Shown here: positions 32,133 to 38,418 of the stretch, one piece after another
Layout: each line of letters begins with the position of its first letter
Position numbering within the stretch: position 1 is the stretch's first letter
DNA from: Sphingomonadales bacterium
GTDB taxonomy: Bacteria > Pseudomonadota > Alphaproteobacteria > Sphingomonadales > Govanellaceae
DNA: 38,418 nucleotides
NCBI GenBank assembly: GCA_019455285.1
Contig: JACFMS010000026.1
Location: 1 to 38,418 of the forward strand
Direction: 5' to 3'
Made by a program: the position numbers and the translations under genes
The notes under the pieces: model-generated
Database searches by the model: none
What the model saw: the letters and a program-made list of their open reading frames with translations, nothing else
Told to the model about the DNA's origin: nothing

Positions 32133-34226
32133 GTGGCGGTGCGTCCAGAGATTTTATACCCGCTGTTCGGCTCGCTGACCGCTTTGAAGGGCATCGGCGG
32201 GCGCACCGCGGCGCACCTGGCGCGGCTGGGGCTTAGCCGGGTGGTCGATCTCCTCTGGCATCTGCCCACGGGGGTGATTGATCGCAGCTACCGGCCAAAC
32301 GTGGCGGTGGCGGCGGACGGCGCCATCGCCACCCTGACCGTGCGCATCCTGGAACACCTCCCCGCGCCGCCCGGCGGGCGACGGCCCTATCGGGTGCGCG
32401 CCAGCGATGACAGCGGCGAAATCGATCTGGTGTTCTTCTCCACCCACCGCGGCTATATCGCGGAAATGCTGCCGGTGGGCGCGACCCGGATCATCAGCGG
32501 CAAAGTGGAATACTTCCAGGGCCGGCCGCAGATGAGCCATCCCGACTACATCCTGTCGCCGGAGGCCGCCGCCAGCCTGCCGACGGTGGAGCCGGTCTAC
32601 GGCCTGACCGCGGGGTTGAGCGGGCGCGTCATGCGCCGCGCCGTGGAGGGTGCGTTGCACCACCTGCCGGCGCTGCCGGAATGGCTCGATCCGGCGCTGC
32701 TGCAGCGTCAGGGCTGGCCCGGCTGGCAGACGGCGGTCAAGGCCGCCCATGCGCCGATAAGCGAGGCCGATACCGAGCCGCTGGGCCCGGCCCGGGCGCG
32801 GCTGGCCTATGACGAGCTATTGGCCAACCAACTGGCGCTGGCGCTGGTGCGCGAGCGCATGAAGCGGCGCAAAGGCCGGGCCATCGTCGGCGCCGGCGCG
32901 CTTCGTGCCAAAGTGATGGCCGCGCTGCCCTTCGCCTTGACCGGGGCGCAAGTTCGCGCCTTGGCCGAGATCGACGCCGATATGAAGAGTGATGACGCCA
33001 TGCTGCGTCTCTTGCAGGGAGATGTTGGCAGCGGCAAGACGGTGGTGGCGCTCCTCGCCATGCTCAGCGCGGTGGAGGCGGGAGGGCAGGCGGCGATGCT
33101 GGCGCCTACCGAAATCCTCGCCCGGCAGCATTACGACACGCTCAAGCCGTTGGCGGAAGCAGCCGGGGTGCGTCTCGCGCTACTCACCGGGCGCAGCAAG
33201 GGCAAGGCGCGGGAGCTGGCGCTCGCCGCCCTGGCGGCGGGCGAGATCGACCTTCTGGTGGGCACCCATGCCCTGTTTGAGGCCGATGTGGCGTTCGCCG
33301 ATCTGGTGCTGGCGGTGATCGACGAGCAGCACCGGTTCGGCGTTCATCAGCGCTTACGCCTGGCTGGCAAGGGACAGGGTCCGGTGGACATGCTGGTGAT
33401 GACGGCTACCCCCATCCCGCGCACCCTGGCCTTGACCGCCTATGGCGACATGGACGTCTCGCGGCTTGACGAAAAGCCGTCGGGACGCGCCCCCATCGAC
33501 ACCCGCGCCGTGCCCCAGGCGCGACTCGAGGAGGTGGTGGCGGGGGTCGGGCGGGCGCTTGCAAGCGGCGCGCGGGTCTATTGGGTCTGTCCCTTGATTG
33601 AGGATTCGGCGGCCGTCGATCTGGCGGCGGCGGAGGCGCGCGCGGCGGCGCTGCGCGACGTGTTCGGCGCGGCCGTGGGGCTCATCCATGGCCGCCTGAA
33701 GGGAGCGGAAAAAGAGGCAGTGATGGCGGACTTCGTTGCCGGCAGGATCAGCATCCTGGTCGCCACCACGGTGATCGAGGTCGGCGTGGATGTGCCGCAG
33801 GCCACCGTCATGGTGATCGAGCACGCCGAGCGCTTCGGCCTGGCGCAGCTCCATCAGTTGCGGGGCCGGGTCGGGCGCGGCGTGGATAAATCCACCTGCA
33901 TTCTGCTTTATGGCTCGCCCTTGGGCGAGACGGCGCGGGCTCGGCTGAAAGTAATCCGCGAAACCGAGGACGGCTTTCGCATCGCCGAGGAGGATTTAAA
34001 GCTCAGAGGCGCGGGCGAGGTGCTCGGCACCCGGCAATCGGGGCTGCCGGAATTTCGCTTGGCCGATATCGCCGTCCACGGCGATCTTCTCGCCATGGCG
34101 CGGGATGACGCCCGGCTCATTATCGCCAAAGATCCCGAGCTGGCACAGGCGCGCGGCCAAGCCTTGCGTGTCTTGCTTTATCTGTTCGAGCGGGACGCGG
34201 CAGTCAAGACGCTGCGCTCGGGGTGA
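32133..34226 (+). CDS. recG: ATP-dependent DNA helicase RecG
   Basis: This 697-residue helicase remodels stalled replication forks and Holliday junctions. The N-terminal wedge/OB region (LKGIGGRTAAHLARLGLSRVVDLL, then PYRVRASDDSGEIDLVFF) precedes Walker A GDVGSGKTVVALLA (about 297-310), DEQHRFGVHQRL (DExH at 397) and motif VI QLRGRVGRG. The TRG segment GAGEVLGTRQSGLPEFRLAD is near the C terminus. The start is GTG at 32133, with another GTG two codons later; no ATG fits. The last 23 bp overlap the convergent DUF502 gene. Confidence 0.97.
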   Translation: MAVRPEILYPLFGSLTALKGIGGRTAAHLARLGLSRVVDLLWHLPTGVIDRSYRPNVAVAADGAIATLTVRILEHLPAPPGGRRPYRVRASDDSGEIDLVFFSTHRGYIAEMLPVGATRIISGKVEYFQGRPQMSHPDYILSPEAAASLPTVEPVYGLTAGLSGRVMRRAVEGALHHLPALPEWLDPALLQRQGWPGWQTAVKAAHAPISEADTEPLGPARARLAYDELLANQLALALVRERMKRRKGRAIVGAGALRAKVMAALPFALTGAQVRALAEIDADMKSDDAMLRLLQGDVGSGKTVVALLAMLSAVEAGGQAAMLAPTEILARQHYDTLKPLAEAAGVRLALLTGRSKGKARELALAALAAGEIDLLVGTHALFEADVAFADLVLAVIDEQHRFGVHQRLRLAGKGQGPVDMLVMTATPIPRTLALTAYGDMDVSRLDEKPSGRAPIDTRAVPQARLEEVVAGVGRALASGARVYWVCPLIEDSAAVDLAAAEARAAALRDVFGAAVGLIHGRLKGAEKEAVMADFVAGRISILVATTVIEVGVDVPQATVMVIEHAERFGLAQLHQLRGRVGRGVDKSTCILLYGSPLGETARARLKVIRETEDGFRIAEEDLKLRGAGEVLGTRQSGLPEFRLADIAVHGDLLAMARDDARLIIAKDPELAQARGQALRVLLYLFERDAAVKTLRSG

Positions 34227-34899
34227 CCGGCGGCGGGATCGGCACACCCTTCGGCGGCCGGCGCGGCGGCACGACGAGGCCGGCGGAGATGATGTATTTC
34301 ATGCCGTCATCCACCGTCATATTGAGATAGATGAGGTCTTTTTTCGGCACAAACAGCAGAAAGCCCGAGGTGGGATTGGGCGTTGTCGGCAGGAACACGT
34401 TGACCACATCCTCTATGGTGCGATCTTGAATTTCCCCCTTGGTTTCACTGGTGACGAAGGCGATGGCCCAGATGTCTTTGCGTGGGTATTCCACCAGCAC
34501 CACATCCTTGAAGGAGCCGGAGTTGGTTGACACCACCGTCTCGAAGATTTGCTTTAAGGTGCTGTAAATGGAGCGGATGATCGGCATGCGATCGAGGAGG
34601 GATTCGCCAAAGGACAGCAGCGCGCGGCCGAAGAAGTTGGCAGTCAGCGCGCCCAAGAGCATCAAAAACACGACGACGATAACGACGCCTAATCCCGGTA
34701 AGCCAAAGGGCAGGTAGGATTCCGGATTATAGCGTTCGGGAATGAGTGGCGTTACCATGCCGTCGATGGAATTAATGAACGCCACCGCAAGATAAATGGT
34801 AATGCCGATGGGAGCGGCCACCACCAGGCCGGTGAGGAAATAATTTCTCAGGCGATGCAGCAGGCTTTTATGTTTATGAGCGTTCTTAGAAGTAGGCAT
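34204..34899 (-). CDS. DUF502 family inner-membrane protein
   Basis: The protein has 231 residues. Two transmembrane helices (about 19-42, YFLTGLVVAAPIGITIYLAVAF, shown only as a segment; and about 68-92, GLGVVIVVVFLMLLGALTANF) are followed by a soluble domain with the family blocks RMPIIRSIYSTLKQIFETV, VVLVEYPRKDIWAIAFVT, VFLPTTPNPTSGFLLFVP and a Pro-rich tail. DUF502 proteins are widespread in bacteria and in plant Golgi-associated COV proteins; the bacterial function is not established. It ends a minus-strand run behind the nucleotidyltransferase (3-bp gap). Confidence 0.9.
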   Translation of the reverse strand: MPTSKNAHKHKSLLHRLRNYFLTGLVVAAPIGITIYLAVAFINSIDGMVTPLIPERYNPESYLPFGLPGLGVVIVVVFLMLLGALTANFFGRALLSFGESLLDRMPIIRSIYSTLKQIFETVVSTNSGSFKDVVLVEYPRKDIWAIAFVTSETKGEIQDRTIEDVVNVFLPTTPNPTSGFLLFVPKKDLIYLNMTVDDGMKYIISAGLVVPPRRPPKGVPIPPPVTPSAAS

Positions 34900-34902
34900 G
34901 AC

Positions 34903-35712
34903 TCAGATTCCTTTGCGGCGCGCCAGAATGTCTTCAACGATGACCACATCGCTGACTTTATCAACGTCAATGGACGCTTCGGCCCACGGCATTTTGATCA
35001 CCACGGGGCGGGCGCCGACGATGCGGCCGGCGCGCGCCAGCATGTCGTCGATGGTGTGAAGGCGGAGCACGTAGCGGATGAGATTGCCGAACCCAAAAGC
35101 GCGCACCAAGTCCAAGGGCTTCTTGCGCTTGCTTTCAACCTCGCGCCAGAAATGAAGGATTTTCAGCGATTTGGCGGTCAGGAAGCCGTACATATTGCAG
35201 CCGGAATAGCCGTCGTCGCGAAATTCAAGATAAGTTCGTTTGGTATCCGGGTAGGCGGCCCTGATGATGTGGCGCGGCACGAACGCCAGGGCGAAATCGG
35301 CGCCTTGCTTGGTCATTGCCTGCTGCGCCACGCGCCAGAAATGTTCGATCATGTCGGCGGTCAGCAAGGCATGATCAGCGGTGACGACAAAGAATGGCGG
35401 CTTGACATCGCCGCGCGCCACGGCGCGTTGCACGCTTTCGCAGATCGAGCCGGCCGCCTCGGTGATGTGGGTGGCGGGCGCATAGGCGACGATATCGGAT
35501 CGGGCGCGGAACGCCTCGACATCCTCCGTCGAGATGAAGATATCGCCGATCCAAGCACTTTCCGCCAAGGCTTCCAGCACGTGCGCGATCATCGGCCGGC
35601 CGCCAATGATGGCGATGGCTTTATGCGAGACGCCCTTGTACTTGGCGACAGGATCATCTTCGCGCCGTTTGCCGGCGAGCACCAGGGCGGGAAATCGGAC
35701 TGGAGCATCCAT
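34903..35712 (-). CDS. MobA-like nucleotidyltransferase family protein
   Basis: The protein has 269 residues and an NTP-transferase Rossmann fold. The N terminus FPALVLAGKRREDDPVAKYKGVSHKAIAIIGGRPMIAHVL holds a nucleotide-binding LAG-x-R motif and the GxPM element. VVTADHALLT matches the metal-binding TaDhPl-type loop, and the end WAEASIDVDKVSDVVIVEDIL fits the W-x-(x)3-D-x-D-x-x-x-D closure of this superfamily. It would join a nucleotide to a small phospho-molecule, making a CDP- or GDP-activated head group or cofactor. The substrate is not evident. It overlaps the upstream GNAT gene by one base (TGATG), so the two are tightly coupled and probably act together. Confidence 0.8.
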   Translation of the reverse strand: MDAPVRFPALVLAGKRREDDPVAKYKGVSHKAIAIIGGRPMIAHVLEALAESAWIGDIFISTEDVEAFRARSDIVAYAPATHITEAAGSICESVQRAVARGDVKPPFFVVTADHALLTADMIEHFWRVAQQAMTKQGADFALAFVPRHIIRAAYPDTKRTYLEFRDDGYSGCNMYGFLTAKSLKILHFWREVESKRKKPLDLVRAFGFGNLIRYVLRLHTIDDMLARAGRIVGARPVVIKMPWAEASIDVDKVSDVVIVEDILARRKGI

Positions 35713-36857
35713 CAGCCAAGAGCCTTGCCGTAAACGCGATAGGTTTTATAGCGCCTCGAGCCAATCTTATCGAGAATGCCGATCATGCGCGGGTTGTCCT
35801 CAAGGATCCACGACAATTCCGCATATGCCGCGCCGCCCGCCACGCCGTTCTGCCGGATCTGTTCAATGAGCGCGAAAGCTGCGGCGCCGCCGAGCGGGCT
35901 GTTCTGGAACTCCTTCAGCACGCCCATCAGCGGCACGCGGGTGGTTTTCGCTTTTTTGGCCTTGAGCCACCATAGCAGCTTGAAAATGCCGAACGGCAGC
36001 AATTTGCCGTCGATGGCTTTGACGATTTCATTGAGGTTGGGCAGCGTCACCATCATGCCGATAGGGCGGCCTTCCGCCTCGGCGATATAGGCCAAATCCT
36101 CGCGGATGAGCATCTTCAGGCCGTCCGCGGTGTGTTTTAGTTCGGCGTCGGTCATCGGCAGATAGCCCCAATTTTCCGACCAGGCGTCGTTGAAGATATC
36201 GAGCACGATTTTCAAGTCCGCGGCATAATTCTTCATCCGCACTTGGCGGAGCTTCAGCTTGCCGTCGCGCATAAAACGATCGCACAGCTTCTTGATCGTC
36301 GGCGGCAGGATTTCATTACGGATGTCGAGATAATAGGCGTACAGATCCTTCGCCTTTTCATAGCCGGAGGTTTCGATCAGGTTGGCGTAATAGGGCCGGC
36401 CATGCGCCATCAGCATCATCGGCGGCATATCAAAGCCATCGATCAGAATGCCTGGTTCCTCGTTGATGGTGGGCGAGAAGGGACCAAGAATGCGAGTTAT
36501 CTCGTGGCGTTTCAGCCACGTCTCAGCGGTTTCCAGGAGCGCGTGGGAAGCGCCGATATCATTCTCGCATTCAAAAAAACCGAAATGGCCGATGGCTTCG
36601 CCGTGATACTGCGGCACCAGGCGGTCGATTTGGGCGCTGATGCGCCCCACCGCCTCGGAACCGCGATAGACGAGCCACATCCGCATCCGCGCATGCTGGA
36701 AATAAGGGTTTTTGGTGTGGCTCAGACGGTCGTTGAGTTCCAACAAAAATGGCGGCACCCAGTTGGGATCATCGCCATATATGCGGCGCGGCAATGCATG
36801 AAAAGTCGCCATGCGCTTTTTGTCGTCGACCGGAACGACCCGGATTTCCCCCGCCAT
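35712..36857 (-). CDS. GNAT-fold acyltransferase-like protein
   Basis: This 381-residue protein belongs to a large family often labelled dATP pyrophosphohydrolase or GNAT. Typical blocks are YGDDPNWVPPFLLEL near the start, VGRISAQIDRL, GHFGFFECENDIG, GPFSPTINEEPGILIDGFD, YAYYLDIRNE and NDAWSENWGYLPMTDAEL. A C-terminal RVPLMGVLKEFQNSPLGGAAAFALIEQI is placed like the CoA-binding loop. The Caulobacter bacterial ceramide synthase (bCerS) is, as I recall, a member of this kind of GNAT family, so N-acylation of a lipid base is a possible role. This is by resemblance only. It is tightly coupled to a nucleotidyltransferase and lies 21 bp downstream of a lipid hydroxylase gene. Confidence 0.72.
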   Translation of the reverse strand: MAGEIRVVPVDDKKRMATFHALPRRIYGDDPNWVPPFLLELNDRLSHTKNPYFQHARMRMWLVYRGSEAVGRISAQIDRLVPQYHGEAIGHFGFFECENDIGASHALLETAETWLKRHEITRILGPFSPTINEEPGILIDGFDMPPMMLMAHGRPYYANLIETSGYEKAKDLYAYYLDIRNEILPPTIKKLCDRFMRDGKLKLRQVRMKNYAADLKIVLDIFNDAWSENWGYLPMTDAELKHTADGLKMLIREDLAYIAEAEGRPIGMMVTLPNLNEIVKAIDGKLLPFGIFKLLWWLKAKKAKTTRVPLMGVLKEFQNSPLGGAAAFALIEQIRQNGVAGGAAYAELSWILEDNPRMIGILDKIGSRRYKTYRVYGKALG

Positions 36858-36878
36858 ATGGATATTCGCTTTCTGTTG

Positions 36879-37658
36879 TCAGTCGCTTATGCGCCGCTCG
36901 CGCGGCGTTGCCGGGCCTAAACCTCCCGAGACGCGGGCAACCCAGGGATATTTCACCGCCTCTTCCTCGGTATAGCCGAGGTTGAACACAGTGGGACTTT
37001 TCGCCAGCACCGTATTCTCCGGATCGAAGGTGCCGAACGCGCGGTCCCAGACGTAGTTGGTGATGCCGAAGTTGCCGTTCTCGTTATGGAAGTGATGCGA
37101 CATGTGCCACTTCTTGATGCGCTTCAAAAACTCGCTTTTCGGCTTATAGGCGAGGTGCTGGATACAGTGGCAGAATTCATAAAAGCAGGTGACGAATACG
37201 CCGGTGGCGAGCCCGGCGAATGCGCCGCCGATGCCGCCAATGAGCCAGCCCATGGGCATGGTGACGATGGCGACGGTGGGCAGCGTGGTGTAAAGCGCGC
37301 CGAACAGCACTTCCAGATCATAGGGATCCTGGTGATGATCATAGTGAATGCGCTTCCACACGGGCGCGGTCAGCGGCATGCGGTAAAGAAACTGCCCGTG
37401 CAGGATATAACGGTGCAGCAGATACCAGGCCAAGGGATAGGCCAGGCTCGACAGGCCGACCACGATCAGTGTCGGCACGACGCCCGGGAAGTTCATGGCC
37501 AATACGACAAGACTGACCGTACCGATGGCGAGGTAGGCCTGGATCGCATAGTACTGGAAGTAGGCAACGATGAGCTCACGCAGCGTCATCTTGTTTAAGT
37601 AGTGCTTGCGGCTCTTCCAGAAGCCGAAGCGGGCAAAAAGCGAATCTTTCTCCGCCAT
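36879..37658 (-). CDS. Fatty acid hydroxylase / sterol desaturase family membrane protein
   Basis: The protein has 259 residues and about four membrane helices. It has the full set of di-iron histidine boxes: HRYILH (82-87), HYDHH (105-109), HCIQH (164-168) and HMSHHFH (185-191). Family members hydroxylate or desaturate fatty acyl chains, sphingoid bases or sterols using O2. The open frame runs 43 codons further upstream, but GGAGA sits 6-7 nt before the ATG at 37658 and MAEKDSLF then starts the protein naturally. It sits 21 bp upstream of the GNAT gene on the same strand, which suggests a shared lipid pathway. Confidence 0.9.
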   Translation of the reverse strand: MAEKDSLFARFGFWKSRKHYLNKMTLRELIVAYFQYYAIQAYLAIGTVSLVVLAMNFPGVVPTLIVVGLSSLAYPLAWYLLHRYILHGQFLYRMPLTAPVWKRIHYDHHQDPYDLEVLFGALYTTLPTVAIVTMPMGWLIGGIGGAFAGLATGVFVTCFYEFCHCIQHLAYKPKSEFLKRIKKWHMSHHFHNENGNFGITNYVWDRAFGTFDPENTVLAKSPTVFNLGYTEEEAVKYPWVARVSGGLGPATPRERRISD

Positions 37659-37787
37659 GCGCCGTCTCCATTCATTCTTGTTCCGCACCATACAGGGGCA
37701 GGTCGCCAAAACCAAGGCCGATCCACGGGATGGATCGAGCGTGGCAGGATATTTGGGCAATTTTACGACCCAATGCCCTGCGTTCAA

Positions 37788-38418
37788 TCAGTTTCTCAGC
37801 CAGCGGGCGAACTTGCCGAAGGCGGCGGCGTCCCGGTTGCTGTAGCCGAAGCGCAGCAGGAAATAAAAGGCAATGAGAAGCCCGATGGCGGCGGCGGCGA
37901 TGCGCGGGGCCATGCCGTAGGGTTCAGCGATCTTGACCAAGGCGATGATCACCCCGCCGCCCAAAAGGGCCGTGCCTAAGGGGCGGAAAATGCGGCGGTC
38001 ATAAGGCTTTAGACCATAAAGCATCCAGGCCTCGCCAAGCGCCATCAACGCCGTCACCGAGAGGCCTATGGCGCTGGATATGGCAGCCCCCATGGCGCCC
38101 AAGCCGGGCACCAGGAGGAGCATTAAGAGCGCGGTTACGGCAAACCCGGTGGCGTTATTGATCAGCGGCAGGCGATAGCGGGCGAGCATTTCCACCAGCG
38201 AGGCGGAAGGGCCGACCGCCGCTTCCACGGCGCGGCCCAGGGCCAGGGCGACGAGAAGGCCGCTCGCCGCCGCAAACTCCGAGCCGACGACCATCAGGAT
38301 ATCGCGGCTCAAGATCAGCATCACCGCGGTGGCGGGGATGAAAATCGACACCATCAGCCGGGTGGTGAAGGTGAACATGTCCTGCAGGGCGTCGCGCTCG
38401 CTTAAAGGGTTTTTCGAG
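37788..38418 (-). CDS. Flippase-like polysaccharide/lipid export protein (5' end beyond window)
   Basis: The frame is open through the window edge; SERDALQDMFTFTTRL continues upstream of the first in-window ATG, so only about 210 C-terminal residues are visible. They form six or so hydrophobic helices with the pattern of MOP-superfamily exporters (Wzx/RfbX, oligosaccharide flippase). FIPATAVMLILSRDILMVVGSEF is typical of helices 8-9, followed by LLMLLLVPGLGAMGAAISSAIGL. These proteins flip lipid-linked glycans across the inner membrane. It is on the same strand as the hydroxylase gene, 129 bp upstream of it. Confidence 0.82.
   Translation of the reverse strand, partial: SKNPLSERDALQDMFTFTTRLMVSIFIPATAVMLILSRDILMVVGSEFAAASGLLVALALGRAVEAAVGPSASLVEMLARYRLPLINNATGFAVTALLMLLLVPGLGAMGAAISSAIGLSVTALMALGEAWMLYGLKPYDRRIFRPLGTALLGGGVIIALVKIAEPYGMAPRIAAAAIGLLIAFYFLLRFGYSNRDAAAFGKFARWLRN

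Follow-up and report, generated by a model that had tools for sequence, protein, structure and literature searches.

A candidate ceramide-phosphoglycerate locus with a cerS-linked SCS7-like hydroxylase in a Sphingomonadales bacterium without detectable LpxC and LpxB

Organization of the locus

To which pathway do the four close-set minus-strand genes at the end of this contig belong? The window, meaning the whole stretch of 38,418 nucleotides that was analysed, is an entire contig (C55), and an earlier note made from its letters proposed that the four genes are the visible part of a sphingolipid-like or glycolipid pathway. We re-measured the spacing by ORF finding over 34903-38417, and the layout was as described before: four adjacent genes on the minus strand, with base 35712 common to the nucleotidyltransferase and GNAT genes and the hydroxylase upstream, its frame ending 21 bp from the GNAT start. 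A further gene, encoding a DUF502 membrane protein, lies 3 bp downstream of the nucleotidyltransferase and had been omitted from the set. The genes are as follows.

34204..34899, minus strand: DUF502 membrane protein (PF04367, 1.2e-38)
34903..35712, minus strand: nucleotidyltransferase, 269 aa, MobA/CofC-like; candidate CC_1153 counterpart, not CpgD
35712..36857, minus strand: GNAT-type N-acyltransferase, 381 aa, candidate bacterial ceramide synthase (CerS)
36879..37658, minus strand: SCS7/FA2H-like di-metal lipid hydroxylase, 259 aa, with the frame open up to TTG 37787
37788..38417, minus strand: putative MOP-superfamily lipid flippase, C-terminal 209 aa; the 5' part is on contig C56, 1-904

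The hydroxylase frame is open from the TTG (36879-37787, 302 aa). The start is most likely ATG 37658, giving 259 aa; this ATG is preceded by GGAGA, and the conserved region of the relatives begins there. With this start, the distance between the hydroxylase and flippase genes is 129 bp. The flippase frame is open at the contig end, so that 209 of about 510 aa are present.

The four genes are likely to form the distal end of a phosphosphingolipid locus of the Caulobacter type (ceramide-phosphoglycerate, CPG2), and we give the whole explanation, including the hydroxylase, export and replacement of LPS, this same weight. The gene set, linkage and homologies were read from sequence and the chemistry was carried over from work on Caulobacter; from these we infer the head group, the hydroxylation site and the export route.

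The GNAT protein and the rest of the pathway

Alignment of the GNAT protein with E. coli BL21 YghO covered 376 aa at 41% identity (2.9e-105; profile 1.7e-162). In BL21(DE3) the YghO gene lies beside genes for an acyl-AMP ligase, an epimerase and an ACP, and next to spt. A BL21 N-acyltransferase, ECD_02850, has been proposed as a ceramide synthase (PMC9386255), and from the gene order we take it to be YghO. A search of Pfam gave a weak match to Acetyltransf_1 (4.3e-05), and a sequence search of the PDB with the GNAT protein gave no match. Of the 60 order genomes searched, 59 have a relative of it, and in many loci such relatives are clustered with SPT, ACP, CerR and AasR. These data support the idea, raised in the earlier note, that this 381-aa protein belongs to the ceramide synthase family, and we regard it as a candidate bacterial CerS of the CC_1154/YghO family.

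Use of the GNAT protein as a query recovered a locus (L011) from a sibling species with 95% identity, the contig of which runs past the end of the window. Mapping of this DNA onto the organism's own genome showed that contig C56 begins one base after C55 ends, within the flippase gene. C56 continues with the rest of the flippase followed by LptG2, LptF2, DUF2141, CpgB, CpgC, SPT, ACP, CerR and AasR. The earlier note had pointed to a serine palmitoyltransferase, a dedicated acyl carrier protein and an NAD-dependent ketoreductase as genes that should lie elsewhere in the genome, and had held that a genome with no SPT-like gene would speak against its proposal. All three are on C56, the ketoreductase being CerR, and an acyl-ACP synthetase (AasR, an AMP-ligase) is there as well. 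The CDP-alcohol transferase that it also named is of the CpgA type and is on another contig, C39, where CpgA, a HAD hydrolase and a CpgD homologue are side by side. Thus, the genes missing from the partly visible pathway are on C56 and C39.

The complete ceramide core set (AasR, CerR, ACP, SPT and CerS, five of five) is therefore in this genome, on C55 and C56. Identities to the sphingolipid genes of E. coli BL21 range from 30 to 51% (SPT 51%, AasR 43%, CerS 41%, CerR 40%). Orthology to the Caulobacter set is proposed from BL21, synteny and domain matches. CpgB, a diacylglycerol-kinase-like putative ceramide kinase, matched DAGK_cat (1.2e-10). CpgC matched no Pfam family and was named from its position beside CpgB and SPT, its conservation and the published gene order. 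The LptF and LptG genes of the cluster matched PF03739 (6.9e-68 and 2.1e-68) and are a putative second pair (LptF2/LptG2). When compared with the proteins of another locus, L024, identity was 37% for CpgA and 62% for CpgD.

The full-length relative of the flippase in the sibling species (L011:7376-8908) has 510 aa. The cut flippase itself had no Pfam match, and its profile matched neither the PDB nor the YghQ-type flippase of BL21. A homologue in locus L016 passes PF01943 (Polysacc_synt, 9.2e-13), and it is on the basis of PF01943 in relatives that we place the flippase, provisionally, in the MOP superfamily.

The hydroxylase

The hydroxylase matched FA_hydroxylase (PF04116) at 8.9e-20, and at 5.6e-20 in a search that also took in 17 homologues, all of which matched the same family. 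Its profile matched yeast SCS7 (4zr1, 3.4e-15) with four His clusters in register; these His columns are invariant among the homologues, and the C-terminal HH..FG(I/V)T..WD.VFGT motif also aligns with SCS7. The structure model is of moderate confidence (pLDDT 74.5), and its top three fold matches are all SCS7, with TM about 0.5. The 259-aa protein contains PF04116 only and has no N-terminal cytochrome b5 domain. Because of this we call it SCS7-like rather than a full SCS7/FA2H member.

Homologues in the order are either strong (E < 1e-106) or absent at E 1e-25 and occur in 23 of 60 genomes. Where a genome of the order has both genes, the hydroxylase is almost always on the same strand and just upstream of the GNAT gene (21 of 22). 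The same arrangement was seen in 13 of 80 further, wider loci, counting among the 13 the sibling-species locus that had already been counted. These include Pelagibius, Kiloniellales, Euryhalocaulis and one Nitrospirae bin, and none of the loci among the 80 that are titled Nitrosomonas or Nitrosospira. The published Caulobacter cluster is without an SCS7-like gene, and ceramide hydroxylation there has been assigned to a DesA-family protein, CC_0202, encoded elsewhere (PMC11324152). In the literature searched, we found no description of a cerS arrangement that bears a hydroxylase.

The substrate position is where another explanation competes most seriously. Sphinganine C4 oxidases and sterol oxidases also fall within PF04116, and SCS7 was the only PF04116 structure matched in the PDB, a match that is compatible with hydroxylation of a long-chain base at C4. 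It is thus conceivable, at perhaps one chance in several, that the enzyme acts on the sphingoid base to give phytoceramide, or on some other lipid, and not on the N-acyl chain. However, the alignment of the four His clusters and the C-terminal motif with SCS7 argues against this, as does the linkage of the gene to cerS, the N-acylation step, and not to spt. We favour hydroxylation of the ceramide N-acyl chain, most likely at C-2. This cerS-linked family is a direct, testable candidate for a ceramide hydroxylase in addition to Caulobacter CC_0202 and the Sphingomonas P450.

The nucleotidyltransferase and the head group

The nucleotidyltransferase matched NTP_transf_3 (PF12804) at 1.1e-10, and its profile matched 2dpw (6.7e-37), IspD/KdsB and the 3-phospho-D-glycerate guanylyltransferase 7p97 (5e-4). 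An AF2 model (pLDDT 90.5) had a MobA/IspD-type fold with 2dpw as the top match (TMt 0.88). Assignment as MobA or KdsB was rejected, with scores far under the NCBIfam cut-offs. Assignment as CpgD was also rejected: there was no significant match to the L024 CpgD homologue (E 0.27), and a separate CpgD is present on C39. In most loci the gene directly follows cerS. In Caulobacter, a CofC-like protein that is needed for CPG2, CC_1153, is numbered next to cerS (CC_1154; PMC11324152). The position and CofC/MobA-type fold of our protein fit the description of CC_1153 in that work, and this makes it a candidate counterpart.

The gene set thus keeps the sphingolipid part of the earlier proposal of a "sphingolipid-like or glycolipid" product and narrows it to the ceramide-phosphoglycerate type, which we infer to be the kind of lipid made. 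It is improbable, and a little more so than a C4 hydroxylase, that the same ceramide core carries mainly a sugar head group, as in the glycosphingolipids of Sphingomonas, with the phosphoglycerate branch minor or vestigial. The organism does belong to the Sphingomonadales, an order with members known for glycosphingolipids, and a CpgD homologue (as at L134:10702-11436) was detected in no more than 13 of the 60 order genomes, so that the second phosphoglycerate step, as judged from these homologues, is patchy in an order that lacks LpxC. By contrast, this genome holds homologues of CpgA, CpgB, CpgC and CpgD, and among the examined genes of the locus none was recognised as a glycosyltransferase. 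These data favour a ceramide phosphoglycerate as the product.

In locus L134 a gene for a HAD-family hydrolase (L134:9933-10652) lies between the CpgA and CpgD homologues; an extra step in head-group synthesis is possible for it. Near this pair, the translation of L134:3429-4262 resembles, as judged by eye, a sterol-desaturase-type protein.

An accidental neighbourhood of four unrelated genes, with the pathway a coincidence, has next to no probability: taken alone, the GNAT and flippase proteins have weak library matches, but SPT, ACP, CerR, AasR and CpgB lie directly past the window end, and chance grouping is excluded by the recurrence of this gene group in dozens of independent genomes.

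Comparison with known systems

The closest likeness is to the ceramide diphosphoglycerate locus of Caulobacter crescentus (CC_1168-CC_1152, CCNA_01210-01226), which comprises five ceramide genes, six CPG/CPG2 genes, LptC2/F2/G2 and a flippase (PMC11324152, PMC12275187). AasR, CerR, ACP, SPT, CerS, CpgB, CpgC and a flippase are common to the two, as is an LptF/LptG pair, the second one in Caulobacter and putatively so here. Going by the published description of CC_1153, both also have a CofC/MobA-like nucleotidyltransferase as the neighbour of cerS. The present locus differs in having the SCS7-like hydroxylase directly upstream of cerS and in having CpgA and CpgD on a separate contig; LpxC, which Caulobacter has, is absent in this lineage. 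The yghO-spt region of E. coli BL21(DE3) (NC_012971) also groups a GNAT protein, acyl-AMP ligase, CerR, ACP, SPT, LptF/LptG and a MOP-type flippase, whereas in the set compared none of CpgB, CpgC, the nucleotidyltransferase and the hydroxylase was matched there. Yeast SCS7 and eukaryotic FA2H (PDB 4zr0, 4zr1) share with the hydroxylase the PF04116 fold and aligned His clusters and are its top fold matches, whereas the enzyme here is bacterial, has 259 aa in all with no cytochrome b5 domain, and is fixed beside cerS. The locus is therefore of a known kind, with an added cerS-linked hydroxylase, in a lineage without the LPS genes tested.

On the order of enzymatic steps worked out for Caulobacter (PMC11324152, PMC12275187, PMC13228409), AasR would load the dedicated ACP with a fatty acid and SPT would condense this with serine. 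The GNAT protein (CerS) and CerR would then make dihydroceramide, which CpgB would phosphorylate, and CpgC would act in addition of the first phosphoglycerate unit. CpgA probably adds the second, using CDP-glycerate from CpgD, and the nucleotidyltransferase of the window would act in this second phase, like CC_1153. The N-acyl chain would be hydroxylated by the SCS7-like enzyme, and the flippase together with LptF2/LptG2 would carry the anionic end product in the direction of the outer membrane, probably to replace LPS there.

LPS genes

Two lipid A genes, LpxC and LpxB, were tested for absence; both families were detected in the E. coli and Caulobacter controls. For LpxC, this genome (listed completeness 100%) gave no match, and across 60 genomes of the order nothing reached the family cut-off, although there was one sub-threshold match (G048). 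LpxB was matched neither in those 60 nor in this genome. Because both are absent from the genome and its relatives, sphingolipids probably replace LPS in this lineage. A literature search for LPS loss in Sphingomonadales found nothing specific. A published parallel is Rhodothalassium salexigens, an alphaproteobacterium that lacks LPS and has SPT, dihydroceramides and an annotated sphingolipid/fatty acid hydroxylase; unlike the lipid proposed here, its sphingolipids were reported to carry neither phosphate nor sugar (PMC11762602).

More tentatively, and at somewhat less than even chances, this may be a naturally LPS-less lineage in which hydroxylated ceramide phosphoglycerates, with the hydroxyl from the cerS-tied enzyme, are exported by LptF2/LptG2 to serve as the outer-leaflet lipid. 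If so, the replacement that LPS-depleted Caulobacter shows in experiments would be the normal way of life here, and the organism would be a natural test case both for a Gram-negative outer membrane without LPS and for LptF2/LptG2 as sphingolipid exporters.

Additional features of the region

The order recG-DUF502-cerS is kept in many relatives within the order. Co-transcription of the DUF502 gene with the nucleotidyltransferase is possible, and a role for it in the sphingolipid pathway is doubtful. Between the flippase and hydroxylase genes, 37659-37787 contains a terminator-like stem or palindrome of a kind that is no commoner than in shuffled sequences. The corresponding stretch of the sibling-species locus has short matches at two further sites in the genome (on C31 and C52), and this gap may therefore hold an interspersed palindromic repeat.
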